A stretch of DNA of 43,514 nucleotides. Source: a virus. The position numbers and the translations under genes were made by a program. Of this stretch, positions 7,551-41,868 are shown piece by piece (position 1 is the first letter of the stretch; every line of letters begins with the position of its first letter). The stretch is from positions 1 through 43,514 of the IMG/VR virus record IMGVR_UViG_3300008267_000168, one strand, 5' to 3'. The notes under the pieces were generated by a model that did not search any database, was not told where the DNA came from, and saw only the letters and a program-made list of their open reading frames with translations.

Positions 7551-7804
7551 GTGAATGGAAGCGCGATAACGGAAAGTATGTGCATTCCAATGACTTATTT
7601 ATCGGGAAGTGGAAAGCTTGCTCTGTTTATTACGATGGCGGAGTAAGCAAAGGGCAGGAAAATAAATATGCAGTTGGTTGCGGCCTTCCCGGTCTAAAAG
7701 ATAGGCACGGACATTTTATGACCGAGGTTGATGCAATGGTCAAGGCTGAATCCCTGCTTGCGTATTGGCTTAGAAATGCAAATTTAGAGGAAACGAAACA
7801 ATGA
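7547..7804 (+). CDS. hypothetical protein (85 aa), GTG start
   Basis: Starts with GTG at 7547, overlapping the preceding TGA (GTGA). The product begins MSEWKRDNGKYVHSNDLF and has GKWKACSVYYDGG, an antiparallel-strand pattern, then a C-terminal helix. Similar small proteins occur beside phage annealases. Function unknown. Confidence 0.6.
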   Translation: MSEWKRDNGKYVHSNDLFIGKWKACSVYYDGGVSKGQENKYAVGCGLPGLKDRHGHFMTEVDAMVKAESLLAYWLRNANLEETKQ

Positions 7805-7983
7805 ACTTTGACGCAATCGTAAACCCCATTGATGAGGGCGCATTCAAGCTGCTTAGCGACAATCGCGACTTCTACATTCAGCAATCAGCCAATACGCGTA
7901 ACGGCGTGATACCGGCGATTAACCAGTATGAAATTGATGAAACTTTGGACGGCAGATACGCAACAACGGAGAGTTACACATGA
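7801..7983 (+). CDS. hypothetical protein (60 aa) upstream of recT
   Basis: A 60-residue protein coupled by ATGA to the annealase gene. It starts [20 protein letters not shown]. No family recognised; perhaps a recombination accessory because of its position. Confidence 0.55.
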
Positions 7984-18909: not shown

Positions 18910-19068
18910 ATGGGATTTTTGAAAGGTTTAGCGGCCATAATTCTTGGGTGCGTCATCGCCACCCTGTTTGGCATTGCGGCAGGCTTTATCATTGGGGCCG
19001 CTTTAATTCTCGGCCCTATTCTGTGGCTGTTTTATCGTCCACTACGTCACGATTCCAAACCTGATTGA
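18910..19068 (+). CDS. small plus-strand membrane protein inside late operon (52 aa)
   Basis: ATG at 18910, TGA at 19066. The product is nearly all membrane helix (FLKGLAAIILGCVIATLFGI, then AAGFIIGAALILGPILWLF), followed by a short basic and polar tail. It runs against the surrounding late genes and its last 53 bases are antisense to the end of the giant gene. The gap of 188 bases between two minus-strand genes is unusual here, supporting a real gene. No good ribosome site lies next to the ATG (AAGGGGA is about 20 bases upstream). It may be a prophage-expressed exclusion gene. Confidence 0.45.
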   Translation: MGFLKGLAAIILGCVIATLFGIAAGFIIGAALILGPILWLFYRPLRHDSKPD

Positions 19069-22000: not shown

Positions 22001-25000
22001 GTGCAATGCCATCTTCTTTAGCGCTGGGCCGTGTGATTTGTAGATAGCCGGAGTCACTACCATTGCGTTCATTGCTGCGCCATTGCGCTTGGTCAGCATG
22101 GACATGGCTGCGGCAAAGCGATCAGTGGAAACAACGCTACGTGGGAACGTCATCGCGGCACGCACAGATGAATCAGCACCGACAGCAAAAACGGCAACCG
22201 AGTTTTCTGGCGTATTCGAGAATAGAGTTTTTGCTAATTGAGCCGCCGAATCTGGGCTTACGATTTTCGCATCAAGTGTCATACCTCTTACGGAAACCAA
22301 AGGGTCAGATTCCCCCTTGTTTGGAATGTTGAAGATATTCTTTCCAGCGTACAGCGTCCCGTTTGGCTTCAGGTATCCGTATGTCTTGTGGTTTAGTACA
22401 ACGTGGCCCATTAGCTGGATGCCTCTGATGCCTCTTTGAATGGCGGCAGTGGCCCTCATGTCAGCACTTGATGGCGTAGGGTTTCCGCTTGGATGGTTGT
22501 GCATCATCCAGAAGCCAGTAGCACCAAAAGTCTTGGCTTGTTCTTCGATCCACGCAGCGCCGTCCTCAATCTCTGTCGGGAAAATACTAGAGGAAGTTGG
22601 AAGACGTGCAGAAACGGCGGTTTCGCCAAGTACTTCGCCAGTATCTTTATTGATGAAGATATAGCGCAGTGTTTCAAATATTGGATTGCGATAAACGTCT
22701 GCAATTACCGCAAGGTCTGCTGCGCTCTCTACTTTCTGCCCAATTAAGAGCGAAGTTTCCGTTTCGCGGAAGTCTCTTGCGATGGTGTCAGCAAGTACGG
22801 AGCCGCCAAACCGCCGCACAAGCGATTCAATCGCGTATTTTCCGCGTCTAATGAGGTTTGGTGAAGCGTCAACTCTTGGTTGAACGCTTTCTGTGTCCAG
22901 CCTTTTGGTGCTTTGAGTTTTAGGATTGGCGTTTTCATTCTGTGCCTCACGGTCTCCACGTGTTGTCACGAACATATCACGGGTAGATTCTACCTTGCCA
23001 TCAAAACTGCCCTGCTCAGGAGCATTTCCAGCAAATAGTTCGCCATCGCCCGACAGCATATCGGTACGGCCTGAGCCGGTCCGACCATCGCGGTCAGCGT
23101 CACGCTTGCGGCGTTCAGCCTCTACGGTTTCTTGGGTGCTTGCTTGGGCAAAGAGTCCTTGCGCGGGAACGGGTTCTTCCCTGATTTGAGGTCTTTCAGG
23201 ACGGCCATCGCCATCCTCTTGCGTTGATTGGGTGTCATTGCCACGGCTGGCCTCCAGTGATTTAGCTAGGTCAATAAGCTGTCTTGCTTGAACAGACTCA
23301 GGCCCGTTAAAGGTAATGTCAAGTATCTGCTCAGGCTGCGCGCCAGCTTCATAAGCACGCTGGATCAAACCGCCAAGCGTCAATGCTTCTTGATAGTCAG
23401 ACTCGTTTAGCTCGTCAATGACTTTCATCGTGGCAGAATTCATGTCTGCCAAGCGGCTTACTTCTGCGTTTGCTTCGTTTTCAAAACGCGCCTCATTGGA
23501 ATACTCGGAAGCGGTGCGAATAGCGTAGTCAATAAACTCTTGCTCACGCGGACCTAGCTTTTGACCAGCCTTATATTTGCTGATGGCCGCACGGGCTTGC
23601 GCTTCATTGAGTGAAGCATTGGGACGGTTACGCCAAAAGCCTGACTCAGTACCATCAGCAGCCGGTTTTGCAATCCATTTGCTGCGGCCAATAACATCGC
23701 CGCCAACCGCATTGCCCATATCAGGCGAACGCTGAATTCGTCCACCAATTTCTGACCAGCCAATTTCTTGGTCGAGTGAATTAAAAAATGAATCTACTGA
23801 GTACGGGTCATTGGTGGGAGCGTTACGCTTACCTTGACCTTCTTGCGGTCGTCCGGCGACAGGTGCTTGGTCTGGTCGAGAATCCAATCCGCTGCGGTCT
23901 GCTCTGCGTTCGGTGCGGAGTCCTGCTGCGGCTCGGTTTTCTTTGTCAGTTCGTTGGGCATTTTCGGCCTCCGTAATGTCTTTTCCGCTGCCGTAAGAGA
24001 ACCCTATTCCGGTGCGTTCGATCACAGTACCATCAGGCAAGGTCACTTGCAATTTAGCCTTGGCGAGCCTGTCACGGGCGCGTGTCATCGCCGCATCAAT
24101 CACGGCAGGGTCATCGCCCTGAACAATGAACTCATCGCCGGACCGGTGGAATACGTTGCCTTCGCCAAGTTCATCGAACAACGCCTGCCCAATCTGAGCG
24201 ATAGCCTCATCGCCAGCGTCATGGTTCAGTTCATCATTAATGCGCTTAAAGTTGTCGGCATCCAGAAACGTCTGAACAGGTTTAAGCTGTCCGGCGTCTT
24301 TCGCTTGCGTGTAGGCCGTACTGTTCTTGATTCCAGGCATCACGCGACCGCCGACTTTACCGGCAGTCCTATCAGCCTTGAGCAGCTTTGCATATTCCAC
24401 AGACTCATCAGGGCTTAAATCCTGCGTGTCTGATTTGGCTTCCAGTTCAGCCAAACGATTTACGGGGTTGGGCCGCTGCCCGGGTTCCGTGATGGCTTCT
24501 GGATTGGCTGGCGTGGAATATTCGGCAATCGTACTTGCGGCTTCTGGATTGGTTGGCGCGGGATTCCCGGCATCCGCACTTTCGGTTGTGTTAAGTCGCC
24601 CAGTTTCATTTTCTTTTTCCTTTTGTAATGCTGTTAATGCAGCGTCAAGATCGTCAGTCGGCTCCACCTGTGAGAGAGCCGTTGCTTTTGAAACAGAAGT
24701 TTCTGCGGTTGCTTCCGTCACAGGTGGAGAGGTTGCCTTTTCAGGCGTGAATAATGGTTTTAGTTTTTCAACAAGATCGCCAAGCCTATCCGGCTTTGTG
24801 TCTGGGACTGCTTGCTTGCCAGCGGCAAGGTCAACAGCAAGGCCAGCGCCAGCCATCGGGCCAGACATGCCAGCACCGGCAGCGAGTGAGTCCACCAGTG
24901 TGTTTTGTAATTCGGTGGTATCAATGCCTTCGCCGCGTATCGCTTGGCCTGCAACGTACTGACTCGGGCCGGTCAAGCCTTCGGATAGTGTTTCGGTTCC

Positions 25001-26038
25001 GGCTACGCGCAAAGCTTTTGCAGCGGGATTTGTCGATGGCTTGAAAATAGCATCGAGTGGCAATTTTTCTGCAAGCGTTTCGATTATTGCTTGAACACCG
25101 GCATCTTGCAAAGACGTGCCAACATCCATGCCTTCCAATCTATCTTGTCCGTATGTTTCGATGCCGGTCGCACCACCGGCAACACCAGCAGCAGAAGCGG
25201 GATTGCCGGTCAGCATTCCGAGCATTGCAGGCAATGACCGCACGACTTGCGGACCGTACTGGCGGGCCACGCTTTCAGGATCGTTAATAACTTGATCAGT
25301 CATATCGCCCAGGCTTCCACGCAATGGCGTACTGCCTGCGGTTACGTCCTGCATACGTTGGTTTGCCGAAGTCAACAAAACATCAGCGCCTTCATTCAGC
25401 GGATCACCAAAATTCATTGGCGCAAGCTGTTCAATCAACTTGTTGTAAACAGGAAGTGAAGATTCTGGGTATCCTTCTTTTAACTGCCTGTAATTCGGGT
25501 CTGTCAACGCTGAACGCATTTCATCGCCTGCATTCAGAAAATCACCGCCCAGTCTTGCTGAGCCACCAAGCAGGGATTCAAGGCCAGATTGGAATGGTTC
25601 GGTAAACATTTCACCCAGAGAAGCCTTGCGCTCAATAATCTTGCCGTCAGGCGTTCTGAATACCGCCCCGTTAGGGGCAGCGTCATAAACGTCATCGAAG
25701 TTAAACGCGCTGCTAACAATAAACGGATCACCGGCTGAACCTGTGCCGCTTGAAATTCGGGTTTCGCGGGTCTTGCCAGTTCCCGGGTCTTTCAGGAAGT
25801 CACGAATAGGCTGCATCTTGTCATCAAGTGGCGCTGCATCTGGAAGCGCACTGGCGTTGACGAACTCAGACGGGGCAATAATGCCTTCTGGAATGTAGCC
25901 GCCATCAACTACCGACGGCTTTCGTGAAAGGTAGTTTGGCAAAGCCGATGACTTTGCTTTTTTCGCAGGCAGAAATTCAGCAAAAGGATTTTCTTGCTCT
26001 TTATCCAGAAACTCAGCAAACGGATTTTCTTCTGTCAT
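19016..26038 (-). CDS. giant polyvalent virion protein with GGDEF-like and RadC/JAB-like domains
   Basis: The protein has 2340 residues. The N-terminus repeats NPFAEFL at 5-11 and 17-23. Residues about 250-420 are Ala/Gly-rich helices. A GGDEF-like domain spans about 560-690: FLDADNFKRINDELNHDAGD, then RSGDEF at 632-637, SGDEF in place of GGDEF. A RadC/JAB domain has HNHPSG at 1180-1185 and Asp 1193, with a following RGIRGIQLMGHVVL. Long helical regions follow, then a large C-terminal domain (about 1740-2070) with YFSAVLTQYNPAFIPVNA, resembling LPD38 of polyvalent phage proteins. It is probably packaged and ejected with DNA, like T7 gp16 or DarB-type proteins, to act in the host early. Domain activities are inference. 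Confidence 0.85.
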   Translation of the reverse strand: MTEENPFAEFLDKEQENPFAEFLPAKKAKSSALPNYLSRKPSVVDGGYIPEGIIAPSEFVNASALPDAAPLDDKMQPIRDFLKDPGTGKTRETRISSGTGSAGDPFIVSSAFNFDDVYDAAPNGAVFRTPDGKIIERKASLGEMFTEPFQSGLESLLGGSARLGGDFLNAGDEMRSALTDPNYRQLKEGYPESSLPVYNKLIEQLAPMNFGDPLNEGADVLLTSANQRMQDVTAGSTPLRGSLGDMTDQVINDPESVARQYGPQVVRSLPAMLGMLTGNPASAAGVAGGATGIETYGQDRLEGMDVGTSLQDAGVQAIIETLAEKLPLDAIFKPSTNPAAKALRVAGTETLSEGLTGPSQYVAGQAIRGEGIDTTELQNTLVDSLAAGAGMSGPMAGAGLAVDLAAGKQAVPDTKPDRLGDLVEKLKPLFTPEKATSPPVTEATAETSVSKATALSQVEPTDDLDAALTALQKEKENETGRLNTTESADAGNPAPTNPEAASTIAEYSTPANPEAITEPGQRPNPVNRLAELEAKSDTQDLSPDESVEYAKLLKADRTAGKVGGRVMPGIKNSTAYTQAKDAGQLKPVQTFLDADNFKRINDELNHDAGDEAIAQIGQALFDELGEGNVFHRSGDEFIVQGDDPAVIDAAMTRARDRLAKAKLQVTLPDGTVIERTGIGFSYGSGKDITEAENAQRTDKENRAAAGLRTERRADRSGLDSRPDQAPVAGRPQEGQGKRNAPTNDPYSVDSFFNSLDQEIGWSEIGGRIQRSPDMGNAVGGDVIGRSKWIAKPAADGTESGFWRNRPNASLNEAQARAAISKYKAGQKLGPREQEFIDYAIRTASEYSNEARFENEANAEVSRLADMNSATMKVIDELNESDYQEALTLGGLIQRAYEAGAQPEQILDITFNGPESVQARQLIDLAKSLEASRGNDTQSTQEDGDGRPERPQIREEPVPAQGLFAQASTQETVEAERRKRDADRDGRTGSGRTDMLSGDGELFAGNAPEQGSFDGKVESTRDMFVTTRGDREAQNENANPKTQSTKRLDTESVQPRVDASPNLIRRGKYAIESLVRRFGGSVLADTIARDFRETETSLLIGQKVESAADLAVIADVYRNPIFETLRYIFINKDTGEVLGETAVSARLPTSSSIFPTEIEDGAAWIEEQAKTFGATGFWMMHNHPSGNPTPSSADMRATAAIQRGIRGIQLMGHVVLNHKTYGYLKPNGTLYAGKNIFNIPNKGESDPLVSVRGMTLDAKIVSPDSAAQLAKTLFSNTPENSVAVFAVGADSSVRAAMTFPRSVVSTDRFAAAMSMLTKRNGAAMNAMVVTPAIYKSHGPALKKMALHGMLIDIFMVNPDGTVVSLANMKVVNGNNVTRFLERGKKGDKARVVKEDSPAYNAAESKRNEAAESLPADRGTAGWNYKANRWDGRVGALRAARADLQDKMISWRYLQEDLNKVIPDAENVYRLETLMHGRVADQMTDIEREQILPLIEAMRQAKVKPEQLEEYLYARHAQERNERIAEINPKMPDAGSGMTTAQAEKILAAADPKMKALARMVDVITNKTRKRLLDNGLITQEQFDSMKAAYQFYVPLRGKRTAANDFDADMRKGVGGGGVDTRGSVLKQAMGRGEGNLAENILAEIIGDAQRSVILSEKARVGRAVMRTVLANPNPSLWELEPVQTERKLDANGEVYEAIINDMSDPRIIAVRHKGKLYKVSIADEQLAKALNHVGIERMGSLTRLAGKMNRYFSAVLTQYNPAFIPVNATRDAIFGLTALAAEKGEAAALKSALRYPQAITASLRYAYGKRGTSEWDTWANEFAKAGGQTGYVNMPSAEDISTAFGSGKLGGYSPTGIAKVGRVIADLVGVMNTAVENALRLSAYVTLRKNGDTPEAAAEYAKNLTVNFNRKGFNGSKLNSWFLFYNAALQGAVRSSKVMRKPKTWGYLGTLAAAQVAATMFAMGLADDDDEPLANKIPDHVKRRNLWFIVPGEQGEHTLVTIPLPYGFNVLPYISGKMTSAMMNKEDKPAETAAMLAANSVSALVESFFPIPVAKGPVGMLPYPLTIAANVQTNRDDFGRPIRQEDPYAKSDLPRSSMGKPDTLEIFKITSKGLNRLGGGDDETVPAISALDLAPEDLEYVSRALTGGLGKFAMDTAALGGNLADPDVQIGPDNVPIIKRYVTKVDEQAAQRSMYYERRATIDKATKRLRKVFDSEGLEAAQKYLEATPELEGARFDTRKNKGKSGEPAGSVILSGGNYKLEVGKIDSPYGHYKATEKLLTSIRENVETEYLKVPADVFPDKKTRARDMELRRLEVQAWGAQYKFNQVWNRDVVDDKTATE

Positions 26039-28657: not shown

Positions 28658-29163
28658 GTCGCTTTCCTTATGATAGCAAACATCACCGCGTCTTCCCCAT
28701 TGGCGCAGTAAGCTTTTTGAACCCCTTCGTTTTTCATGCCGAGCCGTTCATACCAGTGATGGCTTAAAAGGCGAGACGGCAATGCTGCGGTTTGAATGCG
28801 GTGCGCATCGCCATCAAGCATTTGTGCTATCAGGCGCTTTGAAATCTTAGTGAATGCTCGCCAGTATTTGTCCCACGCCTTATCAGTACCCATCAGCCAT
28901 GCCTCATAAACACCTTTACGAATAGGCTCAAAGCCACCGATCAGCACCGGATACCCAGCCCTATCGACATAGACATAGCTCGGGCCATGAATAGAAGCAG
29001 CAACACGAGCGCAAATATCGGACGTGTAATAAGGCAAGTCTGTCTTGGCTAAGAACTGGGCAATCTCGTCCGTTCGCATGTTCTTGGCGATGTGCGCAAA
29101 ATCCTCCAGAATTGGCGCACCAAGACGCAGCTCGGGAACGATATTGATAGACCCGTCAGCCAT
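28654..29163 (-). CDS. second GNAT-like virion-cluster protein (gp13/DUF2833-like)
   Basis: The protein has 169 residues. It shows YPVLIGGFEPIRKGVYEAWL, ISKRLIAQMLDGDAHRIQTA and the terminal HHWYERLGMKNEG, the layout of phage acetyltransferase-like proteins related to T7 gp13 (DUF2833). The first strand carries a short acid patch rather than a clear acetyl-CoA loop, so it may be structural. It is coupled to genes on both sides. Confidence 0.65.
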   Translation of the reverse strand: MADGSINIVPELRLGAPILEDFAHIAKNMRTDEIAQFLAKTDLPYYTSDICARVAASIHGPSYVYVDRAGYPVLIGGFEPIRKGVYEAWLMGTDKAWDKYWRAFTKISKRLIAQMLDGDAHRIQTAALPSRLLSHHWYERLGMKNEGVQKAYCANGEDAVMFAIIRKAT

Positions 29164-29654
29164 CAGGAGCCTGCCCGGTTATCGTGGACATACATGCTCA
29201 GCGCATACATGGTCATATTGCCGCTCGCCCAAGTGATCTTTGGAGCAATTGAAGGCGCAGATAGCGGCATAGGTATCATTGTTCCGGTCAAGCTATCGGC
29301 AGGAATTTCATAAGGGTCCGAAAATGTAGCGGGCGCAAGCTGGTCGTAACCAAAGCTAATCATTGGTAGCTGGTCAGAAGTCGCCACTATGTCAAAAGAT
29401 TCCAACATTTTCGTCACTCCCGGCAAACTCATATCCAGCCACGGCCACTGAATTTCGCCATCCACAAGCAATTCTGCTGCTTCAATAAAATCGCTTGTAT
29501 AGGTGGAATCCACGATGCTGACGTAATCGCCATGCCTCAGATACAGAGTGTCGCCAAGCAGAGAGAACGCTTCAATGTCAAAATCAAAAACATATTTAGA
29601 CCACGCGCCACGACCTGCTTGCAGCATTGAATACACCCAAACGTCAGTAGCCAT
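29163..29654 (-). CDS. C-terminal part of tail hub/stabilisation protein (split gene)
   Basis: The start is the ATG at 29652-29654 (MATDVWVYSMLQAGRGAWS), overlapping the previous stop as TAATG. WVYSMLQAGRGAWSKYVF, then LYLRHGDYVSIVD, WPWLDMSLPGVTKML and IPMPLSAPSIAPKITW match what is usually the last third of a single P22 gp10-like stabilisation protein in related phages. Here it is a separate 163-residue gene. The upstream gene ends with an Ig-like domain before this point. Split rather than truncated, since both parts remain open and coupled. Confidence 0.65.
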   Translation of the reverse strand: MATDVWVYSMLQAGRGAWSKYVFDFDIEAFSLLGDTLYLRHGDYVSIVDSTYTSDFIEAAELLVDGEIQWPWLDMSLPGVTKMLESFDIVATSDQLPMISFGYDQLAPATFSDPYEIPADSLTGTMIPMPLSAPSIAPKITWASGNMTMYALSMYVHDNRAGS

Positions 29655-31276
29655 TATGAGCCGTCCTGGAATCGAATATTGACGCGCTTGGTCCGGCCTG
29701 CTGCGTCTGTGATGGTGATGACAGAATTTACTGTGGCCAAGGAACCCGGGGTTCCTGTTATGTCTCCCGTGTCTGGGTCGATGGACGCCCAAGAAGGTAA
29801 TAGCCCAGTTGTGCCGGATGGCGACCAGACACCCTCGGAATAGGTATATGGACGAATGCCACGCGCCCCACGGAGTTCTTTTCTAATGGACGTTGCAGCA
29901 AAAACATCAATAACAAAACGAACTTCATCATACAAAACGTCATCAAGAAAGGCAGTCAGAAGTTTGTTTGTAAACATCATCCATAGCTGGCCCAACGCAG
30001 GAACATAAAGCCCTTCTGGCGTCTGCCCGGCAGTCAAGTGCGCTTGAATCAGGGAATCGACAGGCTTGCCAATATCGCCTGTCTGTAAATTATCCGAAGC
30101 TGCGGAAATTCCAACGCTTCGCACCCCTTGCGCGGCCATAAAAAATTGTTCTTCGCCAACGGGCTGAGCCGCAAGCGGATAAGTTGAGCCGATTCCCTCC
30201 ATCTGGTCGAGCAGTGCCATATTGGCGGGATCTGGGTCTATCTGCCACATTTGAAAAGTTGACGAAGACCAAACGCAGAGATTGCCGCGGTACACTCCTA
30301 AAACCAGCGCATCGTTATTGCCGTACTGGTGCAGGCCGGTCGGGAGATACCCAGCATCACCGGCGCTCGTCCAATCCAGCGCGTCAACAGTTGAGCAATA
30401 ACGCACCACATCACCGGCGACAGCAAATATTTTACTTGCCCCAACCGCAATAACTTTCGTTCTCGGACAGTTCGGGTCTTTGACTTCTTGCGTTACGCAC
30501 TCCCATTGAGTTGTGTTGTCAGCAACTAAAGCGCCTGGAATAGTTGGCCAAGTCGGTTCTGACGCACCTGAGCGCAGCAATGATACCGCCGTCCACACCA
30601 CGCGATTAGACTGAACCGCCGTCCATACAAGTGTTGACCCATCTGCCACCGTAGCGGCCACCGTAGTGGGCCACACAGGTTCCACGGCTGAGCTTGTGCC
30701 AGCGGTCGTGCATTGATAAAGAAGTCCGCCTATCGGCCCTGAATATGTTTGATCCCATGCAAGCGAATCAAAATGAATTTCAACGGTTGCCGTCGCATCG
30801 ACCTTGAGAATCGGGCGCGCAAAGGCAGCGGTTGCTGGTGCGGTAGCCACAACCAGAATCTGCTGCCATGCGTCCAAAGGGGAGCTTAATGCTTTGTCGC
30901 CGTAATCAGTTTTGATAAACACTGAGCCGGACGTGTACCACGAAATGCCAACAAACACTTGGGGCTGGGTGATAAAAGACCCAGCATCAAGACGCGTCCT
31001 TGCCTTTAGCGTAATTACTTGCCCCGGCAGAACGTCCGCCAAAACAGTGCTGGTGACAGTGCCTGTGCCAGAACCATTAAATCTAAGACTCTGAGCGCCC
31101 TCAAAAACGGGGGACGTATCAATCGACCATGAGCCTGCGATACCCGTCCAGCTTGCCGTACCTGTTTCAAAGCCAGCATTTGGGATTGCTGTTTGCACGG
31201 GCGCAGGCGTTGTACGTGGCTGGATAATCTCACCTAGCGCATACGGTTCACCGGGGGACCATATTTGAGCTGGCAT
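29654..31276 (-). CDS. middle part of tail hub/stabilisation protein with added CBM- and Ig-like domains
   Basis: The protein has 540 residues. Residues about 25-180 resemble a carbohydrate-binding module (IPNAGFETGTASWTGIAG, then SIDTSPVFEGAQSLRFNG). The region about 250-440 is the conserved body of the gp10-like hub: ADNTTQWECVTQEVKDPNCP, VRYCSTVDALDWTSAGDAGY and FQMWQIDPDPANMALLDQME. The C-terminal LPSWASIDPDTGDITGTPG and VITITDAAGRTKRVNI is an Ig-like domain of the He_PIG type (about 490-538). In related phages the N-terminal and C-terminal parts belong to the same protein. It probably forms part of the tail tube/hub and displays carbohydrate-binding domains. Confidence 0.65.
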   Translation of the reverse strand: MPAQIWSPGEPYALGEIIQPRTTPAPVQTAIPNAGFETGTASWTGIAGSWSIDTSPVFEGAQSLRFNGSGTGTVTSTVLADVLPGQVITLKARTRLDAGSFITQPQVFVGISWYTSGSVFIKTDYGDKALSSPLDAWQQILVVATAPATAAFARPILKVDATATVEIHFDSLAWDQTYSGPIGGLLYQCTTAGTSSAVEPVWPTTVAATVADGSTLVWTAVQSNRVVWTAVSLLRSGASEPTWPTIPGALVADNTTQWECVTQEVKDPNCPRTKVIAVGASKIFAVAGDVVRYCSTVDALDWTSAGDAGYLPTGLHQYGNNDALVLGVYRGNLCVWSSSTFQMWQIDPDPANMALLDQMEGIGSTYPLAAQPVGEEQFFMAAQGVRSVGISAASDNLQTGDIGKPVDSLIQAHLTAGQTPEGLYVPALGQLWMMFTNKLLTAFLDDVLYDEVRFVIDVFAATSIRKELRGARGIRPYTYSEGVWSPSGTTGLLPSWASIDPDTGDITGTPGSLATVNSVITITDAAGRTKRVNIRFQDGS

Positions 31277-32754
31277 TATTCGTAATATCCTATTGGCGTT
31301 ACTGAACCATGAAGCGAGCCGGTCGCTGCATTCAAGAACAGGGCCGCGATGACGTGGAAATAGCAGCCCGGAGGGACTACCAGCGGAGCCTGTGAAAAAT
31401 CATGCGTGAAGCCAGCCGCCGTAGTGCCGACCGCTGCCGTGATTGCGAAGGCTTGAGAGCCAATAATGATTCTGCGCGGCTGCAAAGTCGCCGCGCCGTC
31501 TGCGGTTGCAAGACTTGAAGCGGTAGCGCCTACGGCACAGCCCCATTGCACGATAGTGGCAGACGCACCTAAAACCGTGGTCACGAAGGTTTCACCGATA
31601 CGAATGCCAGTGATGTATAGCGTCTTGCCGGGTAAGGCATTTGTCCCGACAGGGTTTAAGTAAGCGAATATTGGGTAGTGAGTTTCAGCAATAGTCGCCA
31701 AACCACTGGAACCGGCTGGAAGCGGTACAGGGCTAATCCATTGGCCACCAAATGCGTTAGTAGCCGGTGCCGTGTTCGCTGTCCATGTAGGCGCTGCGAC
31801 AGCCGTAGGGCTATACAAGGCAGACTGACCAGAAGCTGCACCAGACTGGAGCTGATACGCGCCTTGACCCATGCCAGCCATGACGTGACCCCAAGGCTTG
31901 GGCATGGAAATATCAGCCGACGTTACGCCAAGATAGCCAATCTCAACACGGCGCCCAGCAGAAGCGATGCCGGAGTTATAGACGCGAGCAAAAGCAGGGA
32001 GCGACGTACTTTGGCACGGCCCACCTTGATTCGATGGCGTAGGGGTAGCCGCGACAAGAATATTATTAATCCAAAACAGCGTTTCATCGTTGTGCTGATA
32101 GATTAAATAATGCTGCGCTTCGGTTGCTGCAAATACGCCTGTGCCGTCACGGTTAGGGACGTTGGTGGTTGTAATATTTACGGAGTTTTCGACACCAGCA
32201 AAGTTAACGACGGCAGTTAATTGACCGCCTGCCAGGCGTCTGAAAAATACGCCATCCGTCGGGGCTGCGGTGCCTGTCGCATAACCAAGACCCCATTCTG
32301 ATACAGCGTTGGTAGCGGTATCGTTTCCTTCGCGAATCCACATCTCACAGTGCAAGCCAGCCGCCGTGCCTAGTGCAAACGTGCGGTATGTCCTGATGTT
32401 CGCTGCATTGCCCGAAGCCGTTGCGTTACCGGCGTTTAATTGCAGCCAGCCGCCCGACATGGGGCAGGTCATTGTTGTCAGGTTTAGCTGAATGTTCGCC
32501 TGGGGAATAATTGTCCCTTCAAACGACTGGTTAAAAATTGGGGTGTCTATCGCGATACGTGCGCGAAAGTCAGATGTAACCTCTAACGCTTTCAGTCTGC
32601 GATTAACTAAAACATCGCCAGCGTCCAGCTCGGAAAGCATGCAAGCAAAACCGGCCTCCTCTTGTGGAACGGGCAGATTTACCTTTGCGTTCCCGGTAGC
32701 GTCTGCGGTTAGCTCCGTTACACCAGAGCCGAAGCCTATTTTTGCACCTGACAT
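31276..32754 (-). CDS. adhesin/fibre-like virion protein inserted in hub locus (492 aa)
   Basis: A 492-residue beta-rich protein. The N-terminus (SGAKIGFGSGVTELTADATG) may attach to the virion. A LamG-like region (TFALGTAAGLHCEMWIREGN, then AQHYLIYQHNDETLFWINNI) lies at about 130-240. The C-terminal part (GKTLYITGIRIGETFVTTVL) is another jelly-roll-like unit. It sits between genes encoding the split hub protein, so it is probably a tail-attached surface-binding protein acquired at this place. Confidence 0.65.
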   Translation of the reverse strand: MSGAKIGFGSGVTELTADATGNAKVNLPVPQEEAGFACMLSELDAGDVLVNRRLKALEVTSDFRARIAIDTPIFNQSFEGTIIPQANIQLNLTTMTCPMSGGWLQLNAGNATASGNAANIRTYRTFALGTAAGLHCEMWIREGNDTATNAVSEWGLGYATGTAAPTDGVFFRRLAGGQLTAVVNFAGVENSVNITTTNVPNRDGTGVFAATEAQHYLIYQHNDETLFWINNILVAATPTPSNQGGPCQSTSLPAFARVYNSGIASAGRRVEIGYLGVTSADISMPKPWGHVMAGMGQGAYQLQSGAASGQSALYSPTAVAAPTWTANTAPATNAFGGQWISPVPLPAGSSGLATIAETHYPIFAYLNPVGTNALPGKTLYITGIRIGETFVTTVLGASATIVQWGCAVGATASSLATADGAATLQPRRIIIGSQAFAITAAVGTTAAGFTHDFSQAPLVVPPGCYFHVIAALFLNAATGSLHGSVTPIGYYE

Positions 32755-32757
32755 TTT

Positions 32758-33102
32758 TTAAACTCCTACACACATAAAGTCATAGCTGCCTTTTGCTTCT
32801 GGTTCGGAATACGCGGTGAGCGTAAAACCATCACCAGCAACTAGGTCAGACACGACAGGTTTGATATCAAGTAATCGAATTTCGTCCGGGTCAACGCCAG
32901 CAGGGGTGCGGATTGAAACGACAATCTCGCTATTAGCTGTTACCCATGTTTGGCCGGTAACTACCGTTTGCGCTTTGTCAGTGAATGACGCGCCAAAGTC
33001 ACAGGCCACAGTGACGCTATTGCCTGACCCTCCACTACCCGGAGGGTCATCATCTATCAAGACGGTACGGCCATTAACGTCTAAAAGTTTCCTGATTGCC
33101 AT
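32758..33102 (-). CDS. small virion protein in inserted cassette (114 aa)
   Basis: The start is the ATG at 33100-33102 (MAIRKLLDVNGRTVLID). The 114-residue protein has a Gly/Ser-rich linker (PPGSGGSGNS) and a beta-rich remainder (VVVSIRT-type strands and LVAGDGFTLTAYSEPEA). It may be a fibre-tip or decoration protein. Family not recognised. Confidence 0.55.
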   Translation of the reverse strand: MAIRKLLDVNGRTVLIDDDPPGSGGSGNSVTVACDFGASFTDKAQTVVTGQTWVTANSEIVVSIRTPAGVDPDEIRLLDIKPVVSDLVAGDGFTLTAYSEPEAKGSYDFMCVGV

Positions 33103-33106
33103 GGCA

Positions 33107-33634
33107 TCATGTAGCGTGGATTTGCAGCGCGGCGCTGATGTGTAAGTGCGAAGACGCCGCCACTGTTGCCGTACTAACAAAACCTAGTACGTAATAGCCA
33201 GCAGCAGGAACCGCAAAATCAACACCAGCTAGATTGTTTGCACTGTCAGCAGCCGGAGCCGAAACAGCCACGGTCGAACCCGCAACCGCTGCGCCGATTG
33301 TATAAATACACAAGCCAGCACCACCGGAAGAAGCTGGACGCGTCACTGGATGCAGTCCAAATGTAAAGTCCCCGGTTGGGGCCGTATCATTGACAGAAAG
33401 AGCCACCCTGACCCGAAGTTTTGGCGTCATGTTGCTGAATGACGGATAGTCAGCAGGATCAATGTAGATGATGTTCAATGGGTAGAGAGTGCCGGTTCCG
33501 TCAATGGCAGCAGGATCGCCCTGCCCAAGGCCGTAAGTGCCTGCAACTCTTGCCGCTATATGGGACCCGCTCGAATCCACAAGGGTTCGATAGGATGAGC
33601 TTGGTGTTACGAGTACTGCGTGTGCGTTTGTCAT
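33107..33634 (-). CDS. virion protein in inserted cassette (175 aa)
   Basis: A 175-residue protein, beta-rich and Ser/Ala/Val-heavy (MTNAHAVLVTPSSSYRTLVD, then YYVLGFVSTATVAASSHLHI). No signal. Likely structural. Its ATG overlaps the stop of the N-terminal hub gene. Confidence 0.55.
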   Translation of the reverse strand: MTNAHAVLVTPSSSYRTLVDSSGSHIAARVAGTYGLGQGDPAAIDGTGTLYPLNIIYIDPADYPSFSNMTPKLRVRVALSVNDTAPTGDFTFGLHPVTRPASSGGAGLCIYTIGAAVAGSTVAVSAPAADSANNLAGVDFAVPAAGYYVLGFVSTATVAASSHLHISAALQIHAT

Positions 33635-34416
33635 GGTTCTAGGTATCCTGGTATTGATGGGTCGCTTGGGTTGTATCCGCCCGAGCCGGGGCCGGTGCCT
33701 GGTTGTGGACCAATAACGCCCGGCGTACCGGTGCCGGGCGTTACCTGAACTTGTCCGTCTGAACTTTCAATGGTTGTTGCTCCAGTGCTGGAGTTCCATG
33801 TTGGCTCTGTCTGTCCGCTTGTTGGGTTCGTCCCAAACACAGCAGTAGCAGTGAAATAAAATCCGCTATAAACGGTTGGTTCAATATTGTCGTTTACGGC
33901 TCTTGCTGCGCCTGCGCTCCACAATGGGTAAGCAGACCCCAAGCGACGAGCGCGATATGCGTAGCCGTTTGGCGTCGTAGGAGTAACTAAATCCCCTTGC
34001 CTATAATCAGTGCTGGCTGTCCATGCGTCAGGGGATCGCAGGTAAAAATGATATATCTCGCCATCGTCAAACTCGGCAACTACGTACAAATGCCCAGTAA
34101 ATGGGACGGCTTTGTGTATGGCAATCAATGAGGCGGTAGGCGAAACCGGATGCTTTACGACATTGCAAACAAATCTGTCGTCCGTCATCACAACAACAGT
34201 GTCCGCGAATACATGCAGCTTCCCCTGAAATGCGGTCAGGCCAATCGTTCCAGCAGGCAACGTGTAAGTTGTGTACGTTCCGGGACGGCTTTGCACGGTA
34301 TTTTCATGCGTGACATACGCATTCTTGAGCGTGTAAAGAAGCTTCCCGCTTGCGCCGCCTTTCGTGCGCAGCCGATTTACGCCACCTGAAAAGTCATTGA
34401 GTAATATCTGTCTCAT
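33631..34416 (-). CDS. N-terminal part of tail hub/stabilisation protein (split gene)
   Basis: A 261-residue protein. MRQILLNDFSGGVNRLRTKG, NTVQSRPGTYTTYTL and then HLYVVAEFDDGEIYHFYL, TDYRQGDLVTPTTPNGYAYR are the conserved start of gp10-like stabilisation/hub proteins. It ends in a Gly/Pro-rich stretch (PQPGTGPGSGGYNPSDPS) instead of continuing into the propeller body. The missing continuation is found in the genes at 29654-31276 and 29163-29654. Coupled by ATGA to the upstream neck gene. Confidence 0.7.
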   Translation of the reverse strand: MRQILLNDFSGGVNRLRTKGGASGKLLYTLKNAYVTHENTVQSRPGTYTTYTLPAGTIGLTAFQGKLHVFADTVVVMTDDRFVCNVVKHPVSPTASLIAIHKAVPFTGHLYVVAEFDDGEIYHFYLRSPDAWTASTDYRQGDLVTPTTPNGYAYRARRLGSAYPLWSAGAARAVNDNIEPTVYSGFYFTATAVFGTNPTSGQTEPTWNSSTGATTIESSDGQVQVTPGTGTPGVIGPQPGTGPGSGGYNPSDPSIPGYLEP

Positions 34417-34931
34417 GTGAACGGAACCAGCGGCCTAGGCTCAACATAAACATTTCCGCTTGACGTGCTGCGACCCGGAATATAGCGAGCGCTGCCATGC
34501 GTACCGGCAACAAGAGTCCCCATGTGTGTCTCAAACTGCCCGGCATAATTACCAGCGTCCGGATGACGGTAATGAGCTTTCAGATTAGCGAGCGCCAGCA
34601 TAAACACTAGGTCGTCGTCCACCGTTGGTTTGTCGCCGTCTGCGGTAAAGGCTTCGGCTTTAAATCTAGCCTTGATTCGCAATGCACCAGAGGTAGCTTC
34701 TGGCGCGGGCCATATCTCGATACATTGCTTTAATTCGTAATTGGTGGGCCATCCGGTTTGATCGTAGCCAAGCGACATAGGGTTAATGCCGTATCGTAAT
34801 TCATACCAGCCGCTATCTTGATCGACCCCAACCCATGTAATCTGATATTGATTGATTGTCTTAGCGCATTCGATAGTCGTATTTGCCACCGGTAAAGCAC
34901 CGGCAGGCGTAACGCTCCTAGCTAGTGGCAC
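34413..34931 (-). CDS. C-terminal part of neck/tail adaptor protein (gp11-like, broken gene)
   Basis: Starts with GTG (34929-34931). The strong conservation begins around residue 22: CAKTINQYQITWVGVD, SGWYELRYGINP, then YELKQCIEIWPAPEATSGAL and LALANLKAHYRHPDAGNYAG. This is the second half of what is usually a single phage tail adaptor (T7 gp11-like). The first half is the next gene upstream. It overlaps that gene by 14 bp in another frame, so it may be reached by a frameshift or translated by coupling. Confidence 0.65.
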   Translation of the reverse strand: MPLARSVTPAGALPVANTTIECAKTINQYQITWVGVDQDSGWYELRYGINPMSLGYDQTGWPTNYELKQCIEIWPAPEATSGALRIKARFKAEAFTADGDKPTVDDDLVFMLALANLKAHYRHPDAGNYAGQFETHMGTLVAGTHGSARYIPGRSTSSGNVYVEPRPLVPFT

Positions 34932-35379
34932 CGGGAACTGCTGCCCATGTAACTGTTGCTGTTGAGGTCGTTCCGGAGGTCGTGGTCGTTACTGCGACAG
35001 ACGGTAAACTTTCACCGATCGCGTTTACCGAAGTAACGCGGTAAGACTGTACGCCAGCGGCAAGAGTGCCGCCAGTCGTAGAATTTGAAGCACTGATGAC
35101 GGGGAATGTAATCCCGTTTTCGTCATTGTTGGGGAAATCGTAAAAGCGTTCTCCAGCCTCAAGCGACCAAGTAAACCAACGCTCGGTTCGCAGTGATGGG
35201 AAGCGCTTGATAATTTGGCGTTGCGCTTTCTGCAAGTGAAGCGTGAGCAAGGAAGCCATGCCCGGAGGCGGCGAAGCGGCTTGCACGGCAAAGCCAAGCG
35301 CAATCATTAAATCTGTACGCAGTTGCGCCAGTGTTCGATAACCAGTGGTGTCCGTGCAATTGCAATTAACTGGCATCAT
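34918..35379 (-). CDS. N-terminal part of neck/tail adaptor protein (gp11-like, broken gene)
   Basis: A 153-residue protein. VNCNCTDTTGYRTLAQLRTD, ALGFAVQAASPPPGMASLLT and SLRTERWFTWSLEAGERFYD are the conserved start of the adaptor. From about residue 95 an inserted FN3/Ig-like segment follows (GTLAAGVQSYRVTSVNAIGE, then TATVTWAAVPGATS), and the frame ends in TAG. The expected continuation (CAK...QITWVGV) lies in the overlapping next frame. A ribosome site AAGGA lies a few bases before the start, right after the terminator. Confidence 0.65.
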   Translation of the reverse strand: MMPVNCNCTDTTGYRTLAQLRTDLMIALGFAVQAASPPPGMASLLTLHLQKAQRQIIKRFPSLRTERWFTWSLEAGERFYDFPNNDENGITFPVISASNSTTGGTLAAGVQSYRVTSVNAIGESLPSVAVTTTTSGTTSTATVTWAAVPGATS

Positions 35380-36089: not shown

Positions 36090-37142
36090 TTATGCCACGC
36101 TCAAAACGGCGTTGCTGTTGCGCTTGTTGGTCGTCATGCCGTATTTGCTGGTCATGCCCCAGTAGTGGAAATAACGGTCAGGCAAACGCTCGGGCTTGCG
36201 GTTGACCATCCATGCGCCGGTCATTGGGCGTAACTTCACGCTGCGGCTGTTCAAGAAATAGCAGCGTTTTGTCCATGGATAGGTGATGGCACCCAACAGT
36301 GCATCGAGGGTTTCAAAGGATGGGTCCCAAACGATTGGAACGCCTTTGAAGTACAGGCCAGAAACCGCACCGTCAACACCAATTCCGCCCTTTTCAGGCA
36401 CAACGATTTGACGCTGAATAACGCCAGTGGTCAGGCCGACGCAGGCTGCGCGGTATGCGTCAATGAACGCGGCACCGGCTGCGATGTAGTCCGGCATTTG
36501 ACCGCCGTACAGGATGCAAGCGCGCCATGATTCTTCCATTTCATCCAGAAGATTTGCAGTAGCGATTGCCAAGTTAGCGTTGTTCTGCCAGTAGCTGTTC
36601 GAGGCAAGAATATTGCCCACGGTGCCGGTGGATGGCGTGGTGGATACTAAATGGTCAATACCCTTGGCGGTCTTGGTGCTGGAGCTACCGTCTTGCAACA
36701 GTTCCAGATTCAAGCCTTCTTGGGTCGATTCTTTGAGCGCGTAGTACGAGCTTTTCAGCAGGTTGTTGATTTGAATCTTTTCAGCGCCGGAAGCCACGGC
36801 CTCTTTGTCGTCAGTGACAATAATGCCGTTTGCAGCCAATTGGTCTTCATCGAAGCCGAAGCCATCATGGAAGTTCGCATAAGAAAACTTGGCCAAGCGG
36901 TTAGGATCGCGGTCGTTGTAGGTAACGGCATCGGCACCAAAGTAGTTCTGATAGTTCGAGCCATTGGAAATATGGACCGATTCATTGTGATAGCCATTGC
37001 CGAACAATGAGCTTTCTTTGTTTTTCATCAGCCATTCAAGCGTTGGCCGGTTCTTGTTGATTAAGTCGATTGGATCTTTTTTCGAGTAGGCTTCCAACGA
37101 ATAGTTGGTGCCTGCTGCGATTTGAATAGTGGTAAACGGCAT
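36090..37142 (-). CDS. major capsid protein
   Basis: A 350-residue protein placed right after the scaffold gene. The sequence MPFTTIQIAAGTNYSLEAYS, then DRDPNRLAKFSYANFHDGFG and VNRKPERLPDRYFHYWGMTS fits capsid proteins of short-tailed phages with an HK97-type fold. It is in the expected order (terminase, portal, scaffold, capsid). There is no protease gene in the cluster and no obvious cleavage site, so maturation is probably non-proteolytic, as in P22 or T7. The fold is inference from place and pattern. Confidence 0.85.
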   Translation of the reverse strand: MPFTTIQIAAGTNYSLEAYSKKDPIDLINKNRPTLEWLMKNKESSLFGNGYHNESVHISNGSNYQNYFGADAVTYNDRDPNRLAKFSYANFHDGFGFDEDQLAANGIIVTDDKEAVASGAEKIQINNLLKSSYYALKESTQEGLNLELLQDGSSSTKTAKGIDHLVSTTPSTGTVGNILASNSYWQNNANLAIATANLLDEMEESWRACILYGGQMPDYIAAGAAFIDAYRAACVGLTTGVIQRQIVVPEKGGIGVDGAVSGLYFKGVPIVWDPSFETLDALLGAITYPWTKRCYFLNSRSVKLRPMTGAWMVNRKPERLPDRYFHYWGMTSKYGMTTNKRNSNAVLSVA

Positions 37143-38353: not shown

Positions 38354-40513
38354 TTACATTGGTTGTGGTATTTCGGGTGCAACAGGTGGTGCGCCAGCAG
38401 GCGCAGGAGGTTGTCCAGGCATCGGAGCGCCGGGCATTGCCGTGGGCATTGCTTGGCCATTGGCGCGTGGAATGAGTTGATCGAGGTTGATGTAATCGCC
38501 TGAACGCTCCACCGTGATCCGCATGAGTTCTTCCAGAGAATCAGCGATAACGTCAGGTGTGGCACCGCGTAGTTGTGCAATCTGCTGCACGCCAGTGGTG
38601 AGCTGCGGCAACAACACAGACCACGCTTGACGCTCGGCAGTGGTGTTGGGTTTGCCAGAGCTGCCAGCACGAATATCCACTTCCACCAGTGAGCGTAGTT
38701 CTTCCGGGCTTGTGATTTGCTGCCACATAGCATCAGGGCCAACTAGCTTGCGCACGTCATCGCCGGTCATGTTGGTTAGCGCCACTTCTGCCGTGTACAT
38801 GGCTAGATCGGTCAATGCTTCTTCCATCCAGTCACGCTCTGAACCGGTACGCGCTTGAAAACCTGTTTGCTGAATCTGTGCCTCAGTCGCAGTCTTGCCC
38901 GTGCTGACTTGGCTCAATGCTTCTTGAATGCCCCAGATACGCTCCAGTTCGCCAATGATTCGGGAACGGTCATATAGCGCAGGGTCAAGGCCAGCATAGA
39001 CAACAGGTTTAAACATTGTGCCAACATCAGTACCGGGCCGGATAGGTTCGACACCCACCATTTCCTGCTCGGTGCCATTAGCAATAGCACTAACATCAGT
39101 GGGCGAAAGGCCGGTCCTGTCGAACACAGTCTTGGGGACGATTCGCGAACGATGGCGTTTTTCAGCCGTGCCTATACGGTTGTACTCATCGACCAGCTTT
39201 GCACTGCGTGAAACCTTGCTTTGCGGGTGTCTCTGGCCGTCAATAGCGCCAGAGGCAAACAAGAAGAACGGATAAAACCGGCTTGTCGGCTTAGGCGAAT
39301 ACTCAGGACGCGCCCAGCAATCCAAGCCCTGTAAAGCTGTCATCACGCAGTTAGCGTTGCGGTTCCAAATCTCCACGCACATCACAAAATCGCCCGCCGT
39401 TTCGCCGTTCATCTTGTCGGTGTTCGACACGTATTCGTCAGCGTCCTTGGCATCCAACGACTCAATGCCAACAAGGTTCATCGACTCGGCCTTAGTCATT
39501 TCAGGCTTGCGTTGCTGATAGCACTTAAGCTTCCTGGCCTGCTCTTGCGATAGCTTGAAGTCAGCAACAGCGTCCTGTTTTGCCATCGGTATGTAGTGGG
39601 CAATCCAGTCAGCGTCCAGATAGTTCTCAATCGTCACGCCGGGTGCGACTTGAATGTACTCGGCCTGTCCGTTATCAATCACAAATCCCTTGGCAACGAT
39701 TCGCTCTACCTTGCTTTCCAGTGCCTTGAGTTGACGGCGATATTCAGCGAGCAATGCGTCTTGCTGAGCGCCTGCGGCTTCATCCATTTCCGCACGCAAG
39801 GCTGCGGCCTTGTTGATGTTGTCTTGCAAATCGTTGATCTTCTGACGCGTCACAGGGTCTTCACCCATGCGTTCCTGCCAGCTCGCCTTTAACCAGCCGA
39901 CAGAGACGGTCAGGTTTGAACGCACCCATGGACGCGCACGCATCTTGAGTTTCGCGTCTTTCCACAAGCGTTCAATGACCAGCTCAAGGGTTTCCGCAAA
40001 GGCTTTGGCTTCACGTTGCTTGCGATTGAACGCATCTTTCATCGCCTGGTATTGTTTCTGCACAGCAACATCGACAGCGGCGTTCTTTGCCAGTGTCAGC
40101 ATTTCCATATCGCCGGGGAATTGTGCAGCGGCCAATGCAACAGCCTGCTCAACCTCTGGCGACTTCTGAGCTTCTTCCTCTGCGATTTCCTTAATCAGCT
40201 CAATGTCAGGCACTTCGGCACACTTAGCCGGTGACACATCGCAGGCAGGGTCTTGCGCGTATAGAAACGACACCAGAATGTCGATGAATGTCCCGATGAT
40301 ATTGGCGTCAACGTCAAACGATGAGTCGCCACGGGCATATCGGCGGTCATAGGCGTACTGCCTGCGTGCATCTTCGTCAAACTTGCGAGCCTTCTTGATG
40401 CGCTCAAGCCATGAGTGAACGTCTGCACGCTCCTTGGCCTTGGCCGGCACCTTCATAGGATCGTCAGCCGCATCCATGCCAGCCTCGAAAGCCGTGTTGA
40501 TATCATCGCTCAC
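38354..40513 (-). CDS. portal protein
   Basis: A 719-residue protein, the usual size for short-tailed phages (P22 gp1, T7 gp8-like). N-terminal VHSWLERIKKARKFDEDARR and YARGDSSFDVDANIIGTFID lead into the wing and stem domains. The long helix about 170-270 (FNRKQREAKAFAETLELVIE, then KLKMRARPWVRSNLTVSVGW) is characteristic. The C-terminus is Pro/Met/Ala-rich (PTAMPGAPMPGQPPAP), probably disordered. It forms the dodecameric DNA channel at one capsid vertex. Confidence 0.9.
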   Translation of the reverse strand: MSDDINTAFEAGMDAADDPMKVPAKAKERADVHSWLERIKKARKFDEDARRQYAYDRRYARGDSSFDVDANIIGTFIDILVSFLYAQDPACDVSPAKCAEVPDIELIKEIAEEEAQKSPEVEQAVALAAAQFPGDMEMLTLAKNAAVDVAVQKQYQAMKDAFNRKQREAKAFAETLELVIERLWKDAKLKMRARPWVRSNLTVSVGWLKASWQERMGEDPVTRQKINDLQDNINKAAALRAEMDEAAGAQQDALLAEYRRQLKALESKVERIVAKGFVIDNGQAEYIQVAPGVTIENYLDADWIAHYIPMAKQDAVADFKLSQEQARKLKCYQQRKPEMTKAESMNLVGIESLDAKDADEYVSNTDKMNGETAGDFVMCVEIWNRNANCVMTALQGLDCWARPEYSPKPTSRFYPFFLFASGAIDGQRHPQSKVSRSAKLVDEYNRIGTAEKRHRSRIVPKTVFDRTGLSPTDVSAIANGTEQEMVGVEPIRPGTDVGTMFKPVVYAGLDPALYDRSRIIGELERIWGIQEALSQVSTGKTATEAQIQQTGFQARTGSERDWMEEALTDLAMYTAEVALTNMTGDDVRKLVGPDAMWQQITSPEELRSLVEVDIRAGSSGKPNTTAERQAWSVLLPQLTTGVQQIAQLRGATPDVIADSLEELMRITVERSGDYINLDQLIPRANGQAMPTAMPGAPMPGQPPAPAGAPPVAPEIPQPM

Positions 40514-41868
40514 AGAAAATTCCTTTTACGTTCGGTTTGTTGGCGAGATAAATCGCGGTCTTTCTTGGCGAACCAGTCCTCAGTGAACGGTTCGGCTTGC
40601 TTTGGTTTGCCTTCGGGTTCCGGCAGTGCGTTGTGCATGTTGTCAACGCCGCGACCGAATAGACTGCACACGTCCACCATGTCATCGGTCTTACCGTCTT
40701 GGCCGGTGAATGCGCAAAGTTGGTTAATCAGCCTGTCGCCCCATTCGCACTCAGGAACCCAAATGTCGTTGGTGCTGGCGTAGGCCGCAAAACCTAGCGC
40801 ACGGTCAGCTTTGGACGATGCAGATGCTAGTGCGTGCCGATAAACCGGAAGCCGTAGTCGCTGGATTTCACGCGTGATTGTGCCGTCTATGGTGCGAAGC
40901 ACTGTCCCCTTTTCCTCGAACACGGCAAGCGGTTTGTAACTTCTCGCCAGTTGCGTCCAAGCAGGGAGCCAGTCAGCCGCATCCTCTTGTCCTGAGTACC
41001 AGTCCAAAAACCAAATAGCGCCGGATGAGTCCACGCCGCCAACACCAAACTCATTCCAGTCTGGATCACGTTCTGGCGCGTCCGGGTCCGGTGCCCCCGC
41101 ATAGTCAGTGGACATATAGTTACGCAGCGTTTTCGGATGCTCGCCTAGCTTGTAACGCTTGAACCATCTGCGTTTGAATAGCAGACCAGCGGCTGATCGG
41201 CACTTTCCTTCCCAGACATGATCGTAAAGGTCGTCATTGAGAGCCTTGAGCTTTAATCGCTCGGAATCCATCGCCTCATTGAACCAAGGGTTATCTCGCC
41301 AATTGATCTGGCATACCCAAGCGTCTGGGTCACTACCTTTTACCCAGCGGCTATAAACGTAATCCGATTCCTGATCGGCATTGAAGGTCGCGATTATCTC
41401 GGCCCCTTCTTTCCGCACAATTGTCGGAATCAGGATGTTCCAGGAGTTGGCAGATATCTTGCTGGCTTCTTCAGCCCAAACTATATCAACACCCTCAAAT
41501 GACTTAATCGTGTCAGCGGTATGGTCTTGTAGCCCGATAAAGGCGAACGTGGAGCCAGTTGTCCTGCACTTAATCTCAGTCTTAAGGACTTCAAAGTAGG
41601 CTGCCATGCCTAGGCGCTTAATGTAATCCTTGATGACCTGCATCGAGGATTGAGCAATGGATTTTTGAATCTCGCGAACGCACAAGATGCGCAAGTTCTT
41701 CATGCTCGAAAGCATCACAAGCACCTGGGCAACCGTGTGAGACTTCCCGCCACCGCGTCCACCGTGCATGATCTTGAAGCGTTTAGGCTCCAGAATCGGC
41801 ATCAGCTTGACCGGTATCTGCAATTGCACAGGCTTGTGCATTGCCACCGGCTTCATCATGGCGTTCAT
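40510..41868 (-). CDS. terL: terminase large subunit
   Basis: The protein has 452 residues. The Walker A motif is HGGRGGGKS at about 35-43, Walker B is VDIVWAEEA at about 127-135, and the coupling region follows. The nuclease half shows NYMSTDYAGAPDPD and GGVDSSGAIWFLDW with the acidic residues needed for metal binding. It packages DNA into the head together with the small subunit, which overlaps its start by 4 bp. The type (PBSX/Terminase_3-like) is consistent with headful packaging, though that is not proven. Confidence 0.95.
   Translation of the reverse strand: MNAMMKPVAMHKPVQLQIPVKLMPILEPKRFKIMHGGRGGGKSHTVAQVLVMLSSMKNLRILCVREIQKSIAQSSMQVIKDYIKRLGMAAYFEVLKTEIKCRTTGSTFAFIGLQDHTADTIKSFEGVDIVWAEEASKISANSWNILIPTIVRKEGAEIIATFNADQESDYVYSRWVKGSDPDAWVCQINWRDNPWFNEAMDSERLKLKALNDDLYDHVWEGKCRSAAGLLFKRRWFKRYKLGEHPKTLRNYMSTDYAGAPDPDAPERDPDWNEFGVGGVDSSGAIWFLDWYSGQEDAADWLPAWTQLARSYKPLAVFEEKGTVLRTIDGTITREIQRLRLPVYRHALASASSKADRALGFAAYASTNDIWVPECEWGDRLINQLCAFTGQDGKTDDMVDVCSLFGRGVDNMHNALPEPEGKPKQAEPFTEDWFAKKDRDLSRQQTERKRNFL

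Follow-up and report, generated by a model that had tools for sequence, protein, structure and literature searches.

The window analysed here is the whole 43,514-nucleotide stretch of IMG/VR virus record IMGVR_UViG_3300008267_000168 (positions 1 to 43,514), a metagenomic contig of an uncultured virus. It contains a run of six genes, termed A, F1, F2, F3, B and C, three of which very probably encode the parts of a single tail nozzle, the hub of a short-tailed phage. The original prediction, made from the sequence alone, held that A, B and C carry the start, body and end of one gp10-like stabilization protein, and that genes for fibre-like proteins lie between A and B. All six open reading frames (ORFs) were found in the ORF list of the window, on the minus strand. 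Together with the adaptor gene, the features of the locus are as follows, with lengths in amino acids (aa), carbohydrate-binding modules abbreviated as CBM and immunoglobulin as Ig.

34413-35379, minus strand: adaptor (gp4/gp11-like) with an inserted FN3-like domain; PF24175 SU10_adaptor, E 1e-4, below the curated cut-off.
33631-34416, minus strand: A, predicted N-terminal part of the nozzle or hub, with the start of the platform and the first two propeller blades (blades 1-2; about residues 1-129), then surface modules.
33742-34029, minus strand: tandem CBM5/12-like putative surface modules at the C-terminus of A; phrog_20658 match to residues 131-217.
33107-33634, minus strand: F1, 175 aa, beta-rich in appearance.
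32758-33102, minus strand: F2, first gene of a two-gene fibre cassette, about 114 aa, with its start re-assigned to ATG 33102.
31276-32754, minus strand: F3, second gene of the cassette, 492 aa, with a concanavalin-A/GH16-like domain (65-282) and a C-terminal beta domain.
29654-31276, minus strand: B, predicted middle part of the hub, with N-terminal surface modules followed by the propeller core.
29963-30490, minus strand: propeller core of B (about residues 263-438; probably blades 3 to mid-6), the conserved core of the alignment, corresponding to strands 500-661 of the L113 model described below.
29684-29839, minus strand: Ig-like module He_PIG at the C-terminus of B, at the B|C insertion site; PF05345, E 8e-7, residues 480-531.
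29163-29654, minus strand: C, predicted C-terminal part of the hub, with the second half of blade 6, blade 7, the closure strand and the C-terminal platform.

The junctions are tightly coupled, as had been predicted: stop and start codons overlap as ATGA between A and F1, as TAATG both between F3 and B and between B and C, and as TGATG between C and D. The start of F2 is probably ATG 33102, not the TTG upstream of that ATG. Upstream of A lie a terminase gene (40510-41868), a portal-sized gene (38354-40513), a capsid gene (36090-37142) and the adaptor gene. A directly follows the adaptor gene, which is the place of the nozzle in the portal-capsid-adaptor-nozzle order. Downstream of C are an acetyltransferase-like gene and further genes that are kept in relatives.

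The C-terminal modules of A have a pattern, W..Y..GD.V.P, in common with the start of B, and A ends in a module of a similar kind to the one that begins B. Neither this module nor the presence of the A|B break in about 100 relatives was part of the original prediction. A match to PF02839 CBM_5_12 in the homologue of A from locus L011 (L numbers denote loci or contigs gathered in this study) was weak, with E 0.018, below the cut-off. The CBM-like character claimed for the start of B was supported by a match to phrog_12940 ‘tail fiber’ (1e-7) and by a family-16 CBM (2zew) among the fold matches of an unsplit relative; the Ig-like end claimed for B is the He_PIG module listed above.

Phage proteins that span all three parts in order were found, which clearly disposes of the condition set to refute the prediction, namely the lack of any homologue spanning two of them. 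In a tblastn search of cultured phages, A and B separately reached the same two proteins, from Microcystis phage Mae-Yong1326-1 and Rhizobium phage RHph_N65, and B also weakly matched phiM6. By BLASTP, the 465-aa ‘packaged DNA stabilization protein’ of Mae-Yong1326-1 was matched by A (1-157 to residues 1-146, E 1e-11), B (271-433 to residues 135-307, E 7e-16) and C (5-89 to residues 313-393, E 1e-4), so that A, B and C are collinear with an annotated member of the nozzle family. The three parts likewise matched RHph_N65 QIG74317 in order (A to 1-125, B to 210-477). The next two genes downstream have homologues in both phages, so synteny extends over the entire block. Close relatives were used to build profiles of A, B and C, and these also matched single ORFs in order, of about 826 aa in Stenotrophomonas-type prophages. 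B is 36-43% identical to its relatives and C 39-47% identical to relatives’ C parts, fused or free; the strong link of C to single-chain forms runs via these closer relatives. The hub had no match in Pfam, NCBIfam or a PDB sequence search; relatives and fold comparison led to the family. No relative came from scanning IMG/VR with the plain sequences of B, F3 and the Mae-Yong1326-1 protein, whereas alignment scans found relatives. Two database labels in this family (L003:7389-9026 and L001:3251-5014) are likely misannotations of nozzle proteins: QIG74317 is annotated as 6-phosphogluconate dehydrogenase, and phrog_5107 is labelled ‘amidase’, while its full-length phiM6 match also weakly hits phrog_578, head closure Hc3.

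The unsplit protein of L113 (826 aa) was modelled with AlphaFold2 on an alignment, A4, that contains the window parts. In A4, A was trimmed to its hub core; in an earlier joint alignment, A3, the modules common to A and B had put the A rows in the wrong place. The model had a predicted local distance difference test score (pLDDT) of 86.4. Its best solved matches were all tail nozzles, with Z of about 17-27 (VIA) over about 370-450 residues: Pa223 tail, 27.1; SU10 nozzle, 25.8; P22 gp10, 24.5; crAss001 muzzle, 24.1; and T7 gp12, about 19-20. The gp10-like identity proposed for the hub is thus borne out by the fold of its unsplit form. A seven-bladed propeller and a platform formed from both chain ends were found in this model of an unsplit relative, not in the window’s own chains. 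In the model, the platform begins within residues 1-130, which also contribute six more strands (blades 1-2); residues 131-490 are the surface modules, and residues 491-826 the other blades and platform. The A|B break falls at about residue 238, in a low-confidence linker between modules, and the B|C break at residues 661-664, in a beta-hairpin turn between two adjacent strands, of blade 6 by counting. By this mapping, A would supply blades 1-2, B blades 3 to mid-6, and C the rest with the platform.

Next, we asked how the split and fused states are distributed in the lineage. About 185 loci were gathered by scans with the capsid protein, an alignment of B and an alignment of A. The A, B and C profiles were run on all their ORFs, and duplicates were dropped by A sequence, leaving 120 loci, the window included. 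A and B were separate genes in 107/120 loci and one gene in 10/120; the state could not be assigned in 3/120. The overlap between A and B was 1 or 4 bases in 86 of the 107 split loci. Among non-redundant relatives, 51 had B and C as separate genes and 46 had them fused. In the window itself the nozzle is divided over three ORFs. The fully single-chain forms came from Stenotrophomonas and [Pseudomonas] boreopolis prophages (L107, L110, L112, L113), from L030, L034 and L095, from a Mariprofundus metagenome-assembled genome (L114, a compact chain of 463 aa), and from Mae-Yong1326-1 and RHph_N65. The isolate prophages have Stenotrophomonas, Luteibacter, Rhodanobacter and [Pseudomonas] boreopolis as hosts; in that of Luteibacter sp. 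SG786 (L098), each of A, B and C has its own gene. The three-gene layout had been called unusual. As a layout it extends well beyond the window (A|B split in 107/120, B|C in 51/97); what stood from that claim is the position of the fibre genes, as whole genes between A and B occur in the window only, among the 107 split loci.

Split and fused forms occur in near-identical backgrounds. L081, with B and C fused around a 318-aa insert, and L078, with B and C split and a 395-aa tail, have A 100% and B 93% identical. L080, with B and C fused, and L064, with B, two fibre genes and C in succession, have A 98%, B 88% and C 97% identical. In eight pairs of relatives, the ratio of nonsynonymous to synonymous substitution rates (dN/dS) was 0.03-0.25 for each of A, B and C; purifying selection thus acts on every part in the relatives tested. 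On a tree of B sequences, with fused distant forms as the outgroup, the A-B state changed 3 times and the B-C state 17 times or more, although such counts cannot prove direction and the window, a long branch, is placed unsurely. The fused A-B forms made up two separate well-supported clades nested within split ones, and a single clade of all fused rows was rejected (p-AU 0.0035). The fewest changes are needed if A and B were split once, long ago, and re-fused twice afterwards, with the B|C split often gained and lost.

The two breaks differ in their cargo. At the A|B break (site 1), relatives normally carry modules alone; L006 has a long A tail there and no whole genes. At the B|C break (site 2), the modules in relatives include He_PIG Ig, Laminin_G_3 lectin, SPRY and Sortilin/BNR-like propeller domains, and the window has its Ig module. 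Entire genes from two tail-fibre families, phrog_4176 and phrog_4950, also occur at site 2; it is between B and C that the other relatives with inserted whole genes carry them. In SU10 and crAss001, the nozzle domains and IG1, respectively, are placed between blades 2 and 3 (PMC9509320, PMC10172136), which would be the same place as site 1.

Three loci, L116, L117 and L151, were considered as further cases of genes between A and B and were rejected, as the gap is a BNR-like module inside B. This BNR/sialidase-like repeat module of about 330 aa lies within the CBM-like module of B and is a third insertion place. In L064, a repeat tail with units like AVESGTLR (7330-7989) ends B right before the fibre genes; a similar tail is present in L018 (7294-7707) and a similar repeat in a small gene before the adaptor in L007 (6697-7194). 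Repeat tails of this type are possibly fibre-docking elements. In L011 (13330-13779) and L012 (13336-13776), A ends in an extension of 147-149 aa that has a Cys close to its beginning and the residues HHN close to its end. By eye it resembled a Hint/intein-like domain, but no search supported this candidate.

The fibre cassette proposed between A and B is real, and its second and third genes recur elsewhere. F1 had no significant match in Pfam, PHROGs, phages or the gathered loci. F3 had 104 relatives in other viral contigs, and in about 15-19 other viral loci a homologue of F2 (at most 60% identity over 87 aa) immediately preceded the F3 homologue. The loci of F3 relatives are without A, B and C, except the locus from contig L119. 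In L192, one F2-F3 pair follows a gene of 1356 aa, which we take for a nozzle from its sequence start and position. The pair is therefore a mobile cassette, carried by unrelated phages as well. In contig L119/L191 (L191:130-2928), the F3 homologue stands after a collagen-like fibre gene and before the portal gene, far from the hub genes; similarity between F2 and this collagen-like fibre was not significant.

The AlphaFold2 model of F3 had a pLDDT of 81. Its residues 65-282 form a two-sheet jelly-roll of the concanavalin-A/GH16 type, with VIA Z up to 20.2 to GH16 and lectin folds, and its top Foldseek match was the receptor-binding domain of phage TM4 gp23. Because the GH16 catalytic motif ExDxxE was not seen when the F3 sequence was read by eye, a binding role is preferred over a hydrolase role.

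Taken together, A, B and C are very probably three chains of one tail nozzle of the P22 gp10/T7 gp12 kind, a seven-bladed propeller on a platform. This reading draws on common ancestry with single-chain nozzles, collinearity, the unsplit fold, conserved splits, purifying selection in relatives and module exchange. The three proteins would be translated together from their coupled genes and close into one propeller per subunit, with the surface modules at the tip and presumably six copies of each chain per tail. The strands of B and C would meet at the blade-6 hairpin turn, left open in the chain. Both breaks would then fall where the nozzle tolerates insertions, site 1 lying in the stretch of modules that departs from the propeller behind blade 2, the position of the Ig domains of SU10 and crAss001, and site 2 at the blade-6 hairpin. 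Both would display putative surface-binding modules, and a stop and start at such a site would allow whole fibre genes to be added without breaking an ORF. Site 1 of the window would have taken up F1 and the mobile, lectin-like F2-F3 pair, and site 2 an Ig module; F1-F3 may attach to the hub and bind receptors.

Several points weigh against this reading. We infer both the joint assembly of A, B and C in the virion and the attachment of F1-F3 to the hub. The similarity of C to distant single-chain proteins is weak alone (E 1e-4 and 0.005), and the blade numbers come from strand counts in one model, with no superposition. Selection was measured in relatives, and the window is without a close hub relative. 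Finally, the window is a metagenomic contig with at least one indel, seen in its adaptor gene.

This last point is also what favours the idea that the split genes of the hub are in decay or were produced by faulty assembly, in a phage that is defective or has another hub: the contig is metagenomic, and comparison with the near-identical contig L005 shows a 74-bp deletion in its adaptor. Yet 107 non-redundant loci have the same A|B break, isolate prophages of Luteibacter, Stenotrophomonas and Rhodanobacter among them; the genes keep tight start codons and overlaps; and dN/dS, far below 1 for all parts in relatives, argues against decay. This explanation is already largely refuted, and we consider it very improbable. 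Equally little credence is due to programmed -1 frameshifting at the overlapping stop and start codons, by which A and B, or B and C, would be rejoined and the hub would remain one chain. Relative to A, B is indeed mostly in the -1 frame, which follows from the 1- and 4-base overlaps, and one CCCGGGT heptamer lies in the B/C overlap of the window. However, an X XXY YYZ heptamer is absent from 92/99 A/B overlaps and 23/25 B/C overlaps, and frameshifting cannot join A to B across the three genes in the window, nor B to C across the fibre genes of many relatives; the mechanism was therefore rejected.

A and C might instead now be independent tail proteins, such as fibre anchors or decoration, with B alone forming the ring. 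Most of the lineage encodes A by a gene of its own, so that A could have been put to a new use, and its modules could work alone. Against this, A and C keep the hub-core sequence of their fused relatives (the N-terminal 129 aa and 160 aa, respectively), the fused state is nested within split ones twice on the tree, so the parts remain joinable, and B alone would be without about three of the seven blades and the platform, as judged from the L113 model. We regard such independence as unlikely, though somewhat less so than the two preceding explanations, and retain the three-chain nozzle. Whether the split is itself an adaptation can be addressed only tentatively. A trans-assembled propeller might offer its breakpoints as standing slots in which receptor-binding modules and fibre genes are exchanged by recombination without disturbing the hub ORF, possibly with an adhesin on only some of the six subunits; we hold this to be conceivable, with the odds somewhat against it.

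Other genes of the window bear on its quality and lifestyle. The FN3-like domain of the adaptor was recognized by eye and had no Pfam match. Within it, the gene is broken into two ORFs by the 74-bp difference: L005 is identical to the window over the preceding 8,596 bases and then has 74 extra bases that keep the adaptor domain in frame. The break thus reflects either a deletion or faulty assembly. Adaptor genes of the lineage take insertions too, with extra N-terminal domains in L015 and L017 and extra genes or splits in L007 and L014. Since the genome also encodes an integrase, RecT and a muramidase, the phage is probably temperate. A 2340-aa protein with GGDEF, RadC/JAB and LPD38 domains (19016-26038) is a large polyvalent protein, probably injected along with the DNA.

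In short-tailed phages, packaged DNA is kept in place by the nozzle, which acts as a gate and consists of one chain in the solved examples retrieved. A large lineage with two- and three-chain nozzles, repeatedly split and re-fused, is a natural series on how a propeller assembles from pieces; it also bears on where a propeller accepts insertions and how tail tips swap receptor-binding parts. Annotation can overlook hubs of this kind, as relatives are named ‘6-phosphogluconate dehydrogenase’ or placed in an ‘amidase’-labelled family. A literature search, with subscription papers mostly outside its reach, turned up no description of a nozzle whose coding sequence is in two or three pieces.

Among known systems, the packaged-DNA stabilization protein P22 gp10/Sf6 gp8 has the fold of the unsplit L113 protein (A core, B core and C; Z 24.5 over 396 residues, root-mean-square deviation 3.7, to 8u10) and the same place in the gene order, after the adaptor, and the distant Mae-Yong1326-1 homologue bears its name. 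P22 gp10 differs as one 472-aa chain without added modules, at about 10% identity, and the hub had no significant sequence match to any PDB chain. The SU10 nozzle (gp17) and crAss001 muzzle (gp44) differ as single long chains of about 1005 and 1371 residues, neither reported to be split. T7 gp12 is a seven-bladed propeller with a platform and a nozzle tip domain inserted at a bottom opening of the propeller (PMC6702177); it resembles the unsplit model (Z about 19-20) and differs as one chain whose fibre dock is elsewhere. The podovirus hubs of PhiGT1 and PhiM5 likewise have unusual gene arrangements, and in PhiM5 some internal virion and tail fibre genes are reported to be interspersed with tubeA and tubeB (PMC10386132); what varies in that case is the adaptor gene tubeA, which is doubled, whereas a split of the nozzle gene tubeB is not described. 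Nozzles enlarged by inserted domains (SU10, T7, crAss001) and fibre genes near hub genes (PhiM5, PMC10386132) are thus already known, and the wider interest of the present locus lies in a whole lineage with single-, two- and three-chain forms side by side in close relatives.
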